DNA from: Flavobacterium johnsoniae
GTDB taxonomy: Bacteria; Bacteroidota; Bacteroidia; Flavobacteriales; Flavobacteriaceae
DNA: 64,000 nucleotides
NCBI RefSeq assembly: GCF_030388325.1
Contig: NZ_CP103794.1
Span: 372,001 to 436,000 of the forward strand
Direction: 5' to 3'
How positions within the stretch are numbered: position 1 is the first letter of the stretch; each line of letters starts with the position of its first letter. The notes under the pieces were generated by a model that was given only the letters and a program-made list of their open reading frames with translations, had not been told where the DNA came from and searched no databases. The position numbers were made by a program, and so were the translations under genes. Shown one piece after another: positions 625 through 45,989 of this stretch.

Positions 625-1008
625 TTAAACTCTACGTCTTTTTGGAGGACGACATCCGTTGTGCGGCATTGGAGTAACGTCGATAATCTCAGTAACTTCA
701 ATTCCACCGTTATGAATAGAACGGATAGCAGACTCACGTCCGTTACCTGGTCCTTTTACATAAACTTTCACTTTTTTAAGTCCTGCCTCAAGTGCTACTT
801 TAGCGCAATCTTCTGCTGCCATTTGAGCTGCATAAGGAGTGTTCTTTTTAGAACCTCTGAAACCCATTTTACCAGCTGAAGACCAAGAGATAACTTCACC
901 TTTCTTATTAGTCAAAGAAATAATAATGTTATTAAAAGTGGCAGAAATATGAGCCTCACCCGTTGATTCAACGATAACTTTACGTTTTTTTGCAGTTGCT
1001 TTAGCCAT
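625..1008 (-). CDS. rpsK: 30S ribosomal protein S11
   Basis: Platform protein of the 30S subunit, next to the mRNA exit and the Shine-Dalgarno helix region of 16S rRNA. At 127 residues it has the usual length. It carries the family core ([27 protein letters not shown]) and the basic C-terminal tail [10 protein letters not shown]. The first 12 residues are very lysine-rich ([12 protein letters not shown]). It starts 8 nt after the rpsM stop, so it is clearly part of the same transcript. Confidence 0.98.
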
Positions 1009-1016
1009 ATTACTTA

Positions 1017-1391
1017 TTATTTAGTTGCTTTTTTCTTGTTAGCAACAGTTTTTCTTTTACCTTTTCTTGTTCTTGAGTTGTTTTTAGTTCTTTGTCCTCT
1101 TAATGGAAGACCAGATCTATGACGAATACCTCTGTAACATCCAATATCCATTAAACGTTTAATGTTTAAAGAAATTTCAGAACGTAATTCTCCTTCAATT
1201 TTGTAAAATGAAACTGCCTCACGAATTGCTCCGATCTCATCATCATTCCAATCTTGAACTTTTTTATCTTGGCTAACTTGAGCTTTTTCTAAAATCTCAA
1301 TAGCTCTACTTCTACCTAATCCGAAGATATAAGTAAGTGCGATAACACCTCTTTTGTTTTTTGGGATATCTACCCCTGCTATTCTTGCCAT
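1017..1391 (-). CDS. rpsM: 30S ribosomal protein S13
   Basis: Head protein of the 30S subunit that forms the intersubunit bridge to L5 and contacts the P-site tRNA through its basic C-terminal tail. The 124 residues show the family start [14 protein letters not shown], the helix-two-turn-helix region ([14 protein letters not shown]), the motif [17 protein letters not shown], and a lysine/arginine-rich tail. It starts 2 nt after the rpmJ stop. Confidence 0.98.
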
Positions 1392-1393
1392 AA

Positions 1394-1510
1394 TTATCCT
1401 TGTCTTTGTTTAAATCTAGGATTCTTTTTGTTTATTACGTACAGTCTCCCTTTTCTACGCACGATAATGCACTCGGCACTTCTCTTTTTTACTGATGCTC
1501 TAACTTTCAT
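1394..1510 (-). CDS. rpmJ: 50S ribosomal protein L36, zinc-free form
   Basis: Smallest large-subunit protein, 38 residues, found by reading the minus strand between rpsM and infA. It begins [14 protein letters not shown] and ends NPRFKQRQG. The usual L36 zinc ribbon needs three cysteines and a histidine. Only one cysteine (residue 14) remains here, so this is the C-minus type that cannot bind zinc. Spacing is 2 nt to rpsM and 12 nt from infA, as expected within the alpha/spc operon. The short length and conserved ends leave little doubt about identity. Confidence 0.95.
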
Positions 1511-1522
1511 ATTGAATATCCT

Positions 1523-1738
1523 TTAATATCGATAAGTAATTCTTGCTTTTGACAAATCATAAGGACTCATTTCTAGTTTCACTTTATCACCAGGTAATAA
1601 TTTGATGTAATGCATACGCATCTTTCCAGAAATATGAGCAATTACGATATGTCCATTTTCTAACTCTACACGGAACATTGCATTTGATAATGCTTCAATA
1701 ATTGATCCGTCTTGTTCTATTGCTGATTGTTTTGCCAT
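1523..1738 (-). CDS. infA: translation initiation factor IF-1
   Basis: Single OB-fold protein that occupies the ribosomal A site during initiation and assists IF-2 and IF-3. The 71 residues match the family length of about 72. They include the hallmarks [24 protein letters not shown] and the C-terminal KARITYRY. It lies 7 nt after secY. In many bacteria map (methionine aminopeptidase) sits between secY and infA, but there is no room for it here. Confidence 0.98.
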
Positions 1739-1745
1739 AAATATA

Positions 1746-3092
1746 TTAAGCTACCGCTTTTCTATTTTTACCAGTCTTCATTAAACCATCATAATGTTTG
1801 TTTAACAAGTATGAATTGATCTGTTGAATAGTATCTATTGCAACTCCAACCATAATTATTAATGAGGTACCCCCAAAAAACATCGCCCAAGATTGTTGTA
1901 CATCCATAATACTTACAACAATAGCTGGGAACACAGCAATCAAAGCAAGGAATAAAGATCCTGGGAAAGTTATTAAAGACATCACTTTATCAAGGAAATC
2001 AGAAGTTTCAGCACCAGGACGAACCCCAGGAATAAAACCACCGCTTCTCTTTAAATCATCAGCCATTTTGTTAGTAGGTACAGTGATTGCAGTATAAAAG
2101 AATGTAAATACAATAATTAAAGTTGCAAAAACAAAATTATACCAGAAACCAAACATATTACTAAATGCACCAACAATTGATTGTGATGTATCTGATTTAG
2201 ACAGCCCAGCTACAGCCGCAGGGATAAACATAATTGCCTGAGCAAAAATGATTGGCATAACTCCAGAAGCATTAAGCTTAAGAGGAATCCATTGTCTATT
2301 ACCACCTGCTAAATCTTGCTCATAATCACCAGTTGTTGTACGACGAGCGTATTGAACTGGGATTCTACGTACTGCCATTGTAAGCAATACACAAGAAATA
2401 ATTACTAATAGCCACACAATAATTTCAATAACTAATAACATTGGACCTCCATTGTTATTGGTAACACGAGTTGTAAACTCTTGGATAAAAGCTTGCGGTA
2501 AACGAGCTAAAATACCAACCATAATTAACAATGAAATACCATTTCCAATACCTTTATCTGTAATTTTCTCTCCAAGCCACATAGCAAAAATTGTACCTGT
2601 AACCAAGATTATAACAGACGAGAACAAAAATTCAGGTGAATTAAAGCCTAGCAAAAATGCATTACTAGGCAATGTTCTGTATAAATTATAGATATAAGTT
2701 GGACCTTGAACCAATGTGATAGCGATTGTCAACCAACGAGTGATTTGATTAATCTTTTTTCTACCACTTTCTCCATCATTTTGAAGTTTTTGTAAATATG
2801 GAATCGCAATTCCCATCAACTGAACAACAATAGACGCAGAAATATAAGGCATGATACCTAAGGCAAAAACTGAAGCCTTAGAGAAAGCACCCCCGGTGAA
2901 CATGTCTAGAATAGATCCTAGACCATTTTTAGTTTGTCCCGCTAAACCAGTCAATTGCGTTGCGTCAATTCCAGGAAGCGTAACGTGTGCTCCAAAACGA
3001 TATACTAAAAGTAATCCTAATGTAATTAAGATTCTATTTTTTAGTTCTTCGATTTTCCAAACATTACTTATTGATTCAATAAATTTCTTCAT
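1746..3092 (-). CDS. secY: protein translocase subunit SecY
   Basis: Membrane channel of the general secretion pathway, working with SecE/SecG and the SecA motor. At 448 residues it has family length and shows about ten hydrophobic segments. Recognisable motifs are the start region [20 protein letters not shown], the plug-helix neighbourhood ([14 protein letters not shown]), [11 protein letters not shown], the cytoplasmic loop [10 protein letters not shown], and [20 protein letters not shown] with [10 protein letters not shown]. It lies between rplO and infA inside the ribosomal operon, so translocon and ribosome synthesis are coupled. Confidence 0.98.
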
Positions 3093-3105
3093 CTTAATAG
3101 ATAAG

Positions 3106-3558
3106 TTATATAGTTACAGCTTCTCCACCAGCAGCTTCAATAGCAGCTTTTGCAGTAGCAGTAAATTTGTGGGCAGTTACTTTTAATTTTGCTTTCAATT
3201 CTCCTCTACCTAAAATCTTAACGATTTCATTTTTAGTAGCTAGACGATTTGCTACGAAATCTGTCATTGAAACAGAATCAGTAATTACACCGTTATCAAC
3301 TAATAATTGAAGAGTATCTAAATTAACACCTTCGTATTCTTTACGATTGATGTTTTTGAAACCAAACTTAGGTACACGTCTTTGAAGTGGCATTTGACCT
3401 CCTTCAAAACCAATCTTTTTAGAATAACCAGAACGAGATTTTGCTCCTTTGTGTCCACGTGCAGCAGTACCACCTTTACCAGAACCTTCTCCTCTACCTA
3501 ATCTTTTATTTTGATTGTGTGTAGACCCCTCAGCAGGTTGTAAGTTACTTAAATTCAT
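3106..3558 (-). CDS. rplO: 50S ribosomal protein L15
   Basis: Large-subunit protein that enters late in assembly and contacts several 23S rRNA domains. Its glycine- and arginine-rich N-terminal arm (NKRLGRGEGSGKGGTAARG, KSRSGY) threads through rRNA in known structures. A globular domain follows (GGQMPLQRRVPKFGF). The 150 residues are normal. It lies 11 nt after rpmD and 13 nt before secY, the standard spc operon order. Confidence 0.97.
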   Translation of the reverse strand: MNLSNLQPAEGSTHNQNKRLGRGEGSGKGGTAARGHKGAKSRSGYSKKIGFEGGQMPLQRRVPKFGFKNINRKEYEGVNLDTLQLLVDNGVITDSVSMTDFVANRLATKNEIVKILGRGELKAKLKVTAHKFTATAKAAIEAAGGEAVTI

Positions 3559-3569
3559 AACAGTATTTG

Positions 3570-3752
3570 TTATTTAGCTTCTTCAACAGAAACTAAGTGT
3601 TTAACTTTGTTTATCATCCCAAGGATAGCAGGATTTGACTCATGCTCCACAACTTGTCCAATTTTACGTAGACCTAAAGCTTCCAATCCTCTTTTTTGAG
3701 AAAGAGGGCAGTTGATTTTGCTTCTTACTTGTTTTACTAATAATTTAGCCAT
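3570..3752 (-). CDS. rpmD: 50S ribosomal protein L30
   Basis: Small 60-residue large-subunit protein with a ferredoxin-like fold. It begins [27 protein letters not shown], which fits the bacterial short form, and has the conserved GLRKIGQ motif. It sits 10 nt after rpsE and 11 nt before rplO, in conserved order. Confidence 0.97.
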
Positions 3753-42127: not shown

Positions 42128-42159
42128 TTTGGCTAAAAAAAGATTAAAAAGTATCTTTG
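42128..42159 (+). promoter_or_regulatory. purK promoter
   Basis: TTTG (42128-42131), 20 nt, TATCTTTG (42152-42159): both boxes match the Bacteroidota consensus fully. The ATG is 17 nt after the -7 box. The frame could be extended to a TTG at 42129, but that lies in the -33 box. Confidence 0.88.
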
Positions 42160-42176
42160 CAAAAACACAACACAAA

Positions 42177-43334
42177 ATGAATTATTTTTCTTCTGATTTT
42201 AAATTAGGAATATTAGGCGGCGGGCAGTTAGGTAAAATGCTTTTGTTCGACACCAGAAAATTTGACATACAAACTTACGTTCTAGATCCAAGCGACGAAG
42301 CGCCGAGTAAAATTGCCTGCAATAAATTCTTCCAAGGTGATTTAATGGATTATGAAACCGTTTATAACTTTGGAAAACAAGTCGATGTTCTAACTTTTGA
42401 AATCGAATTGGTAAATCTTGAAGCTTTAACACAATTAGAAAACGAAGGTGTAAAAGTTTATCCGTCTCCAAAAACCTTAAAAGGAATTCAGAATAAAGGA
42501 ACTCAAAAAGATTTTTATACCGAAAGCAATATCCCAACGGCATCATATTTACGATTTGAAAGTCCGGCGCATTTGCAGAAATCAGTTGGAAATAACGAAA
42601 TCACAATTCCATTTGTTTGGAAATGCACCGAGTTTGGTTACGACGGAAATGGCGTAAAAGTTATTCGTCAGATTTCTGATATGGACGATTTGCCAAATGT
42701 AGAATGTATTGCAGAAACGATGGTTCCGTTCAAAAATGAATTGGCGGTAATTGTAGTAAGAAATCCATCGGGAGAAATTAAAACATATCCGGTTGTAGAA
42801 ATGGAATTTCATCCAGAAGCAAACCAAGTTGAATACGTAATCTGCCCGGCAAGAATCGACGAAAAAGTAGCCGAAAAAGCCAGAGCAATTGCTTTGAACG
42901 TTTCTGAAAAATTCAATCACGTTGGACTTTTGGCTGTTGAAATGTTCCAAACCAATGAAGATGAAATTTTGGTAAACGAAGTTGCTCCTCGCCCACACAA
43001 TTCAGGCCATTATTCTATTGAAGCAAGTTATACTTCACAATTCGAAAATCATTTACGTGCAATTTTAGATCTTCCTTTAGGAAACACAGACAGTAAAGTT
43101 GCCGGAATTATGGTAAATTTAGTTGGCGCTGAAGGTCATTCTGGAAATGTTGTTTATGAAAACATCGAAACCATTTTAGGCTGGGACGGCGTTACTCCCC
43201 ATATTTACGGCAAAAAACAAACGCGTCCATTCAGAAAAATGGGTCACGTAACAATCGTAAATGAAAATATGCAAGAAGCGAGACGAATTGCTGAGGAAGT
43301 TAAGAATACTATTAAAGTGATTAGTGGTCAGTAA
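42177..43334 (+). CDS. purK: N5-carboxyaminoimidazole ribonucleotide synthase
   Basis: ATP-grasp enzyme that carboxylates AIR to N5-CAIR in purine synthesis. The protein starts MNYFSSDFKLGILGGGQLGKML, the usual PurK N-terminus, and has 385 residues. ATP-grasp elements are FVWKCTEFGYDGNGVKV, and EILVNEVAPRPHNSGHYS with ENHLRAILDLPLG after it. The next enzyme, PurE, is encoded 2 kb downstream, beyond an inserted ATPase/HNH pair, although the two are commonly adjacent. Confidence 0.96.
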   Translation: MNYFSSDFKLGILGGGQLGKMLLFDTRKFDIQTYVLDPSDEAPSKIACNKFFQGDLMDYETVYNFGKQVDVLTFEIELVNLEALTQLENEGVKVYPSPKTLKGIQNKGTQKDFYTESNIPTASYLRFESPAHLQKSVGNNEITIPFVWKCTEFGYDGNGVKVIRQISDMDDLPNVECIAETMVPFKNELAVIVVRNPSGEIKTYPVVEMEFHPEANQVEYVICPARIDEKVAEKARAIALNVSEKFNHVGLLAVEMFQTNEDEILVNEVAPRPHNSGHYSIEASYTSQFENHLRAILDLPLGNTDSKVAGIMVNLVGAEGHSGNVVYENIETILGWDGVTPHIYGKKQTRPFRKMGHVTIVNENMQEARRIAEEVKNTIKVISGQ

Positions 43335-43386: not shown

Positions 43387-43394
43387 TAGCTTTG
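43387..43394 (+). promoter_or_regulatory. -7 promoter box of the ATPase/HNH pair
   Basis: TAGCTTTG fits TAnnTTTG and ends 14 nt before the ATPase ATG. No TTTG is present at the -33 place. It suggests that the inserted pair is expressed apart from purK. Confidence 0.5.
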
Positions 43395-43408
43395 TAAAAA
43401 TTCAATAA

Positions 43409-44713
43409 ATGAAAATTTCAAAATTACATATCGATCAGTTTAGACATTTAGAAAATCTAGAATTTGATTTTACTTATCAAAGTGGTGAACGAAAAGGTGA
43501 ATCTTTGGATAAAATATGTTTTATTGGACAAAGTGCTACTGGGAAGACTGGTTTATTACAACTGATTTATGATCATTCTATTAATCTTTTAAATTTAGAA
43601 CTCATAAACGGTCAAATTTTCAGATTAAAAGATAATCTAAATAAAAGCGAAGTTACATTCTTACTGGGAAATGAGGTTTTTCATTTAAAAAACAATGAAG
43701 TTACTTTCAGAAACCAGAACTATCGACATGATTTCAATAGCGGCGGACTAGTAACCACTTTAATTCCAGAACAATACAGAAAAGATATTTTTTACTTTAA
43801 AGCGAATTTAGTGTCTGATCAAAACATAAATTTTCTTTCAACTAATCCAATCGAATTAATAGAAAAACATAGTAAAGAACTTCAAAATATTAAGCAAGAA
43901 TTTCATAACAAAGATGACAATTTTTTAATGAACGAAAATTATGGTCTTTTATTTAATGGTGATGTTGATACTAAAATCTGGCTTAATTTATTAGTAGATT
44001 ATCTTAATTATCGAAAAAACTTTACTCAAAAAATGTCTGAATTAATCCACCAAGGTTTTATTAAAGACATAAATAAATTAAGCTCTGAATTTAACAAATG
44101 GCAAAAACATAATCCAAATAGACTAGAATCATTTGCAAAAGAATTCAATTATATTTTAGAACGTTTAAATTTAGAGGTTGATCTGGTAAATACAGAATAT
44201 TCAGTACCAATAAAAAAGAAGGGAAGAGAAGAAATCATTCCGTTTCAAGATACAAGTACTGGAACAAAACAACTTTTACTGACATCTTTACCATTATATT
44301 CACTAGATACTAAAGATTCAATAATTTTAATCGATGAACCTGAACGTTCATTATATCCAAACATTCAGATGGAAGTAATGGATTATTATAAAAAACTTGC
44401 TCCCGAAGCACAATTTATTGTCGCAACCCACTCTCCATTTGTTGCCGCCTCATTTGAACCTGACGAACGATTTATTTTATATTTTGATAACGAAGGAAAA
44501 GTTGCTGTTCGAAGAGGAAGTTCGCCAATTGGAGACGATCCAAATGATATGCTTTACAATGATTTTGGCATTAATTACATAAACAAATACGGTCAAGAAA
44601 AATATCAAGAATATTTAGATTTAAAACAAAAAATTTACTTCGAAAAAGATCCAAAAAAGAAAGAAGAAATTTCAGAACAGTTAGAAAAATTAGGTGATGA
44701 ATACAATTTCTAA
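43409..44713 (+). CDS. AAA/ABC-type ATPase, PtuA-like (Septu-like defence)
   Basis: RecF/OLD-like ATPase of 434 residues. The N-terminus is ISKLHIDQFRHLENLEFDF, a typical start for this class. Walker A is GQSATGKT (40-47), an ABC-signature-like STGTKQLLL (283-291) follows, Walker B is SIILIDEPERS (residues 304-314, D309, E310), and the switch histidine is H341 in VATHSPF. The insert between about 60 and 280 is helical. It is followed after 2 nt by an HNH nuclease gene, the PtuA-PtuB order. Lengths agree with PtuA. The family of such ATPases is broad, so assignment rests on motif order plus partner. Confidence 0.72.
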   Translation: MKISKLHIDQFRHLENLEFDFTYQSGERKGESLDKICFIGQSATGKTGLLQLIYDHSINLLNLELINGQIFRLKDNLNKSEVTFLLGNEVFHLKNNEVTFRNQNYRHDFNSGGLVTTLIPEQYRKDIFYFKANLVSDQNINFLSTNPIELIEKHSKELQNIKQEFHNKDDNFLMNENYGLLFNGDVDTKIWLNLLVDYLNYRKNFTQKMSELIHQGFIKDINKLSSEFNKWQKHNPNRLESFAKEFNYILERLNLEVDLVNTEYSVPIKKKGREEIIPFQDTSTGTKQLLLTSLPLYSLDTKDSIILIDEPERSLYPNIQMEVMDYYKKLAPEAQFIVATHSPFVAASFEPDERFILYFDNEGKVAVRRGSSPIGDDPNDMLYNDFGINYINKYGQEKYQEYLDLKQKIYFEKDPKKKEEISEQLEKLGDEYNF

Positions 44714-44715
44714 AC

Positions 44716-45291
44716 ATGAGAAGAGTTTTTAAAAATCCAAATTCAGAGATTGTCGTTCAAAAAATAGTTTATAAAAAAGGTAGCAATAAAAAATTATCGT
44801 CAATTCTTCTAAAAGAACAAAAAAGCTTTTGTGCCTATACAGAAGAATATATTGGATTTAACGATGCTGTCGATATAGAACATTTTAATCCAAATTTAAA
44901 ATATCTAGAAACGGATTCCTATGAAAACTGGTTTATGGTAAAACATAAACCTAACAATCTTAAAACTACCAATTGGATCGAACCAATTCTTTATCCGATT
45001 GATGAAAATTTTGAAAACAGATTAATATATAATAATGGTTATTTTCTTCATAACCCCGAAGATATTGAAGCTAAAAACTTAATAGATCTTTTGAATTTGA
45101 ATGATGAAATTTTTGTAAAAAACAGAAAAAGATTCATTCAAAGAAGAAAAGAAAGAATCGCTGAAAAAGGAATTACTCCTTTTGATTATTTTACTGAGAA
45201 AATAGAAAACGAAATAGATTCCTTAAAATATCTAAGAGCAATTCAAGAAGAATTCAAAATTGATATTTGGAATATGATTCCAGAAATGTAA
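44716..45291 (+). CDS. HNH endonuclease, PtuB-like (Septu-like defence)
   Basis: A 191-residue protein with an HNH core: FCAYTEE (39-44), VDIEHFNPN (52-60, catalytic H56) and the central Asn in YENWFMVKH (N71), then N80/N81. In relatives the first loop is CxxC and binds zinc. Here the second cysteine is Thr, so the zinc site is probably lost. The C-terminal half is helical and charged. It is nearly coupled to the ATPase (2 nt gap). PtuB and the retron-associated HNH effector group share this layout; no reverse transcriptase is present. Confidence 0.72.
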   Translation: MRRVFKNPNSEIVVQKIVYKKGSNKKLSSILLKEQKSFCAYTEEYIGFNDAVDIEHFNPNLKYLETDSYENWFMVKHKPNNLKTTNWIEPILYPIDENFENRLIYNNGYFLHNPEDIEAKNLIDLLNLNDEIFVKNRKRFIQRRKERIAEKGITPFDYFTEKIENEIDSLKYLRAIQEEFKIDIWNMIPEM

Positions 45292-45378: not shown

Positions 45379-45861
45379 ATGAGCAAAGTAGCTATTATAA
45401 TGGGAAGCATCTCAGACATGCCAGTTATGCAGGATGCAATCGACATATTAAAACAATTTAATGTAGAAGTTGAAGTAGATATTGTTTCGGCACACAGAAC
45501 ACCGGAAAAATTATTCGATTTCAGTAAAAATGCACACAATCGCGGGATTTCGGTAATTATTGCCGGTGCGGGCGGTGCGGCACATTTACCTGGAATGGTG
45601 GCTTCAATGTCTCCGCTTCCTGTAATTGGAGTTCCTGTAAAATCAAGCAATTCTATTGATGGATGGGATTCTGTTTTATCGATTCTGCAAATGCCAGGCG
45701 GAGTTCCTGTTGCAACTGTAGCTTTAAACGGAGCAAAAAATGCCGGAATTCTAGCAGCACAAATCATCGGAAGCCATGATAAAAAAGTTTTAGATACTAT
45801 TATTTCTTATAAAGAAGAATTGAAAGCTGCGGTTAATAAAGCGGCTGAAAGCCTTAAATAG
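45379..45861 (+). CDS. purE: N5-CAIR mutase
   Basis: Converts N5-CAIR to CAIR, the step after PurK. The 160 residues include IIMGSISDMPVMQDA, DIVSAHRTPEKLF with the catalytic histidine, GAGGAAHLPGMVAS and GVPVATVALNGAKNAG, all class I PurE. It has the usual length of about 160-165. It is cut off from purK by the ATPase/HNH insertion, and repeat-filled spacers flank it on both sides. Confidence 0.97.
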   Translation: MSKVAIIMGSISDMPVMQDAIDILKQFNVEVEVDIVSAHRTPEKLFDFSKNAHNRGISVIIAGAGGAAHLPGMVASMSPLPVIGVPVKSSNSIDGWDSVLSILQMPGGVPVATVALNGAKNAGILAAQIIGSHDKKVLDTIISYKEELKAAVNKAAESLK

Positions 45862-45872
45862 TTTTCAAGTCA

Positions 45873-45916
45873 CAGTCACAGTTTTCAGTCGCATTATAGA
45901 CTGAAAACTGTGACTG
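45873..45916. repeat. 18-bp perfect hairpin of CAGTCA/TTTTCAGTC words
   Basis: CAGTCACAGTTTTCAGTC (45873-45890) pairs perfectly with 45899-45916 around an 8-nt loop. The words go on to 45980 (ACTGAAAAC, GAGACTGAAAAC). It lies between purE and the M3 peptidase gene. Confidence 0.8.
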
Positions 45917-45989
45917 AAAACTGAAAACAAAAAAAACAACTCTTAAGTCTCGGTTGACACTGAAAAACTGAGACTGAAAACTAAAAAAC

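Follow-up and report, generated by a model that had tools for sequence, protein, structure and literature searches.

A Septu gene pair between purK and purE of Flavobacterium johnsoniae: a shared chromosomal address with apparently exchangeable cassettes

The window, a stretch of 64,000 nucleotides of the Flavobacterium johnsoniae contig NZ_CP103794.1 (positions 372,001 to 436,000), contains two genes, ptuA and ptuB, between purK and purE, and all four genes lie on the forward strand in the order purK, ptuA, ptuB, purE. Both flanking genes exceed the curated NCBIfam cut-offs: purK (42177..43334) reaches 386.5 bits with PRK06019.1-5 (cut-off 326) and purE (45379..45861) 203.7 bits with TIGR01162 (cut-off 149.6). 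The open reading frame listed for purK begins with a TTG at 42129, and the family match starts at its residue 24; the ATG at 42177 fits the start of the family. ptuA (43409..44713) encodes an ABC/RecF-type ATPase of 434 amino acids and is followed after 2 nt by ptuB (44716..45291), which encodes an HNH nuclease of 191 amino acids; the pair is separated from purK by 74 nt and from purE by 87 nt. These coordinates bear out the position, lengths and coupling described in an earlier sequence-only reading of this DNA, and every ATPase and HNH motif named there was found in PtuA or PtuB. Four segments can be distinguished in ptuA: the constant segment K1 (43409..43543, forward strand; residues 1-45, up to Walker A), the putative exchangeable cassette 1 (43544..44308; residues 46-300), whose hypervariable core spans roughly residues 55-185, the constant segment K2 (44324..44548; residues 306-380, from Walker B to the H-loop region) and cassette 2a (44564..44710), the C-terminal tail of residues 386-434 with two predicted helices (393-411 and 415-432). 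ptuB is referred to as cassette 2b. Downstream, the length of the gap between purE and dcp (45862-45989 in the window) differs among relatives, lying between about 0.07 and 1.1 kb.

Judged by sequence, the pair belongs to Septu, an anti-phage system that is already known, and, taken alone, it is an ordinary member. Both PADLOC models are matched over their full length, PtuA residues 1-434 aligning with positions 1-438 of 438 of PDLC00274 (E 1.1e-159) and PtuB residues 1-190 with positions 1-194 of 195 of PDLC00347 (E 2.3e-80), and PtuA has the fold of Septu type I. The ATPase motif residues G40, G45, K46, T47, D309, E310 and H341 of PtuA are present in 58/58 sequences, as are C39, H56, N71 and N80 of PtuB. 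The second zinc cysteine, which had been noticed to be absent from the HNH domain in the window, is replaced by Thr or Ser at PtuB residue 42 in all 58 sequences, so that its absence is a trait of the whole subfamily. PtuB of the window consequently differs from the Cys-x2-Cys form of the solved retron PtuB (GFCAYCE), a form that we do not treat as defining for Septu, and it stays below the curated cut-off of the HNH model TIGR02646 (26.1 vs 52.15 bits), a model against which the earlier reading had proposed to check it. That reading had likened the pair both to Septu and to the effectors of some retrons. The likeness to Septu holds; that to retrons was rejected, because the NCBIfam equivalogs for the retron I-A effector PtuAB are missed by far (52.8 vs 500 and 35.8 vs 150 bits) and the spacing to purK and purE leaves no room for a reverse transcriptase. 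PARIS was rejected as well: the PADLOC model of AriA matches PtuA far more weakly (E 1.3e-22) than the PtuA model does, and the partner gene matches PtuB instead of the TOPRIM protein AriB.

The octamer TAGCTTTG (43387..43394, forward strand) lies 22 nt ahead of the ATG of ptuA and fits TAnnTTTG, which we take to be the Bacteroidetes promoter element. Of 41 occupied loci, 34 have this motif in the 75 nt ahead of ptuA, compared with 2 among 39 different empty gaps between purK and purE; the latter are a non-random set (40 fetched, one of them twice), which combines all 19 long gaps with 20 shorter ones from hosts close to that of the window. As far as sequence can tell, the pair thus brings its own promoter-like box, as had been proposed. 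The repeat-rich edges of the pair, which had been read as signs of an insertion, do exist; however, many of the relatives' empty gaps contain comparable runs, cagtcgcag and cttgaaac..cctgaaac among them, which therefore do not mark one.

A match to PtuB was found in 33 of the 398 Flavobacterium genomes searched. purE lies directly downstream of ptuB in 28 of these, and purK was also seen upstream in 27 of the 28, the exception being G415, in which purK falls outside the stretch examined. In G042, which is among the 28, ptuB contains an internal stop. ptuB is in two pieces in L115 (5305-5851) and L089 (F. covae and G042), which suggests decay in place. Two further positive genomes, G184 and G324, lack an intact pair and carry short ptuB remnants beside purE (L162:1641-1751 and L163:1325-1508). 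The remaining three are G155, in which the pair lies between ribBA and pepT, as read from the identical locus L110 (L110:4001-5904) of F. aurantiibacter, G385, a distant relative with neither purK nor purE within the 6 kb fetched, and G172, where the contig ends. Among 91 genomes with both genes in the 150 matches listed per gene, mostly hosts close to that of the window, purK and purE are 55-414 bp apart in 75 genomes without the pair and 1967-2195 bp apart in 16 genomes with it.

The address extends beyond the genus. Two exact peptides of this subfamily led to 71 loci among 84,980 species genomes, a set that is therefore biased towards the subfamily; 35 of the loci have both flanks, another 2 break off behind purK, and the other 34 are situated elsewhere. 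The flanked loci are mostly from Flavobacterium, with three from Tenacibaculum, one from Paenimyroides, two from uncultured Flavobacteriaceae and one from a metagenome-assembled genome labelled Limnohabitans. The contig of the latter (L123) carries Flavobacterium-like purK, ptuAB, purE and dcp, which suggests misbinning. Two loci with wide purK-ptuA gaps were inspected for extra open reading frames, which are 285 amino acids long in L120 (3046-3903) and 115 and 78 amino acids long in L112 (3247-3900). The idea that the purK-purE gap holds nothing but the pair proved wrong, as 18 of the 19 longest pair-free gaps (226-414 bp; L169-L187 except L170) contain a small open reading frame. Two unnamed kinds can be told apart, one of about 70 amino acids in 15 of these gaps and one of about 90 amino acids in 3. 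Remnants of ptuAB were absent from the 39 distinct empty gaps at E 0.01 or better, so that these sites are no proof of former presence. Members of the same subfamily share another address in the seven Chitinophaga-type loci (L121, L122, L127, L132, L136, L137 and L150): hflX- and PMT_2-like genes lie upstream in 7/7, as judged by mutual similarity with names taken from L121 (and for PMT_2 also from L150), with a Rieske-like open reading frame between them in 5/7. L136 and L137 hold broken copies of the pair.

Sporadic presence, a shared purK-purE address and remnants of loss are thus evident in these genomes. The proposal of a recent insertion is not supported, because the address is widely shared by relatives while its contents are young, and the earlier interpretation is thus supported in part. 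Carriage by phages or plasmids was rejected on record scans: 25 pattern matches in IMG/VR included no relative, phage records held none, and plasmid records gave just 8 partial matches with 29-43% identity and a coverage of at most 36%.

For the analysis of the block structure, 41 loci with purE in the same locus were chosen from 58 distinct pairs, and purK, purE and dcp served as host yardstick for the 31 of them with long purK and dcp matches. Averaged over pairs of loci in steps of 10 residues, the identity of PtuA is 0.8-0.9 near the N-terminus and 0.6 at residues 21-30, falls to 0.07-0.56 at residues 51-190, reaches 0.35-0.71 at 191-280 and 0.67-0.93 at 281-390, and is 0.45-0.5 in the tail to residue 430. 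Linkage also shifts along the pair. The windows of residues 1-30 and 21-50 track the host (r 0.47 and 0.21), those from 41-70 through 281-310 belong to a single block (r 0.63-0.88 for the core and -0.15 to 0.10 for the host), those from 301-330 to 361-390 track the host again (r 0.22-0.45), and residues 381-430 form another block together with the whole of PtuB (r 0.69-0.86). Mantel tests against the host in the 31 loci gave r 0.44 (p 0.001) for PtuA residues 1-45 and r 0.39 (p 0.005) for residues 306-380 vs r -0.07 for residues 46-300, -0.07 for the tail and -0.01 for PtuB. Between blocks (41 loci), tail and PtuB are correlated with r 0.77; the values for cassette 1 are r 0.12 with the tail (p 0.10), r 0.16 with PtuB (p 0.047) and r 0.10 with residues 306-380 (p 0.2). 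Residues 1-45 have weak links to all blocks (r 0.18-0.33, for the cassettes 0.18-0.23; p 0.001-0.009). Clustering of the 41 loci resulted in 27 core types at 50% identity and in 6 tail and 5 PtuB classes at 60%, with an adjusted Rand index of 0.48 for tail and PtuB, 0.0006 for core and tail and 0.03 for core and PtuB. The locus seems to be built as constant segment, cassette 1, constant segment and cassette 2, with PtuA residues 1-45 and 306-380 following host relatedness; residues 46-300 on the one hand and the tail with PtuB on the other are inherited largely independently and appear to be exchanged separately between strains.

The trees of PtuA residues 41-375 and of the tail with PtuB are mutually incompatible, at a cost of 3250 and 3650 log-likelihood units. 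Controls taken within a block are rejected too: imposing the tree of residues 46-170 or that of 171-300 on the other part, or on both parts combined, costs 94-247 log units, and imposing the PtuB tree on the tail costs 47. The AU tests (10000 replicates) are not taken at face value, since they also reject trees within one block and the p-values alone prove little; a check on the re-fitting of branch lengths agreed. Because within-block trees are rejected as well, exchange probably also cuts inside blocks, and the block edges are not absolute. The distinction of two units is drawn from the size of the misfit, about 50-250 log units within vs 850-3700 between blocks, from the linkage profile and from pairwise breakpoints. 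The latter were read from nucleotide identity in 60-nt windows. L123 and L114 are 95-100% identical over ptuA residues 41-300, 43-75% over the tail and most of ptuB and 63-86% over purE, and L133 and L135 are 91-98% identical over residues 21-320, 36-73% over the tail and most of ptuB and mostly 86-95% over purE. The window and L094 are the mirror case, with 88-96% in purK, 90-95% in the tail and mostly 73-98% in ptuB vs 36-66% at residues 61-220. In L108 and L109, from Tenacibaculum finnmarkense and its genomovar ulcerans, the DNA for PtuA residues 50-186 is 66% identical and the rest of the 6 kb 96%. Furthermore, two PtuA proteins named F. plurextorum by their sources, among 120 of 1038 proteins listed, have identical tails and cores of 43% identity.

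It seems reasonably probable that the pair of the window is a Septu allele at a shared chromosomal address, in which a PtuA oligomer senses infection via cassette 1 and frees PtuB docked on the tail, and whose cassettes are swapped by recombination. The oligomer would detect infection through the core at residues 55-185, PtuB would dock on the PtuA tail, as read from their co-inheritance alone, and triggered PtuA would unleash the nuclease and thereby halt growth of the infected cell. This could be abortive infection through cleavage of tRNA or DNA, as is reported for other PtuAB systems. New sensors and effectors may move between strains by homologous recombination, for which the conserved parts of the ATPase and the flanking purK and purE would serve as anchors and which would require no integrase. 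We infer these roles of cassette 1, tail and ATPase segments or flanks from published work on PtuAB and on AriA. Septu EcB88 is reported to need the Walker residues of PtuA and H75 and N91 of PtuB and to cut tRNA-Tyr; PtuAB of retron-Eco7 is reported to lead to degradation of tRNA-Tyr. In a table of a 2025 review, sensing by PtuAB is given as unclear, and AriA, the related sensor ATPase of PARIS, recognises phage proteins according to a commentary. A wider reading, in which Flavobacteriaceae maintain a combinatorial immune locus, appears to us evenly balanced: one main address would hold a big pool of cassette 1 alleles and a smaller pool of tails and PtuB, recombined for the most part independently of each other across species and genera via the ATPase segments, cassette 1 would be the missing Septu sensor, and a similar arrangement would exist in Chitinophaga.

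The main rival to the sensor reading, to which we assign a small but real likelihood, is that the variable part of PtuA is the target of phage-encoded Septu inhibitors, its diversity reflecting escape, and that the trigger is general, for example a nucleotide or DNA damage signal. Both causes predict hypervariability that tracks neither host nor effector class, and the sequence data fit both alike; the entry in the review table also agrees with inhibitor escape, whereas recognition of phage proteins by AriA favours by analogy recognition as the role of such ATPases. An ancient vertical resident that is frequently lost and whose cassettes differ by fast mutation in place would account for the host signal in PtuA residues 1-45 and 306-380 and for the remnants of ptuB next to purE in the genomes G184 and G324. 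However, cassette 1, tail and PtuB carry no host signal (r -0.07, -0.07 and -0.01), the trees are strongly incongruent, and loci with a near-identical cassette 1 can be only about half identical in tail and ptuB, which makes this explanation very unlikely.

The address itself could be explained in other ways. A purine-linked role, in which a pair within the purK-purE operon couples immunity or another function to the supply of purine or ATP, would be in line with the retention of the address over several genera and with PtuA being an ATPase. Such a role is highly improbable in view of the promoter-like box of the pair (34/41 occupied vs 2/39 empty sites), the 365 of 398 genomes without a PtuB match, and the other addresses downstream of hflX and the PMT_2 protein in Chitinophaga and between ribBA and pepT in F. 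aurantiibacter. Homing, by which the nuclease PtuB would cut empty purK-purE sites into which the pair is then copied, is the least credible of these explanations. It would draw on the HNH domain of PtuB and on an address common within one family, but a conserved target sequence was not apparent by eye across the 39 empty gaps, Chitinophaga has another shared address, two small ORF families also use the purK-purE gap, and the pair is rare (a PtuB match in 33/398 genomes).

While the Septu family is already known, the shared address and the mosaic appear to be new within the literature searched. Searches on Septu, PtuA or PtuB, on Septu and Flavobacterium, and on hypervariability or recombination, with preprints and subscription papers outside their scope, returned no report of a purK-purE address or of cassettes. 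The titles and abstract beginnings on Septu and Flavobacterium, PMC10013915 among them, gave no hint of the address, and the matches listed for purK, purE and defense system were unrelated. Block exchange points to PtuA residues 55-185 or so as the stretch likeliest to decide how Septu notices infection, and L108 and L109 are a natural pair that differs almost solely in residues 50-186. Furthermore, a defence system without visible mobility genes seems to spread and diversify at one address in the core genome, and the exchange rate, the allele pool and the link to phages can be measured at the purK-purE locus.

Compared with PtuAB of E. coli, a Septu type I system (structures 8ee4, 8eea, 8sux), PtuA of the window is 16-17% identical in the aligned part, and its subfamily differs in lacking the second HNH cysteine and in having apparently exchangeable cassettes at one shared chromosomal address. 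PtuAB of the retrons Ec78/Eco7 and Ec83 goes with a reverse transcriptase, for which there is no room between purK and purE in the window, and the pair found there fails the retron equivalog cut-offs by far; the second cysteine is present in the retron PtuB chain 9l7p_H and absent from PtuB of the window. The effector of the PARIS ATPase AriA is AriB, a TOPRIM nuclease, whereas that of the window is the HNH protein PtuB. In HsdS of type I restriction systems, constant segments flank variable parts that recombine. The pair of the window may be regarded as analogous, since it also seems to have recombining variable parts between constant segments; however, its variable parts would be a sensor and a unit holding the effector, and we know of no sequence relation between HsdS and PtuA or PtuB. 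In the core defence hotspots of Pseudomonas aeruginosa, defence genes lie between fixed core genes, and transfer by homologous recombination in the flanks has been suggested (PMC10250203). Those hotspots hold many different systems, whereas the purK-purE gaps examined held either the ptuA-ptuB pair or small open reading frames only.
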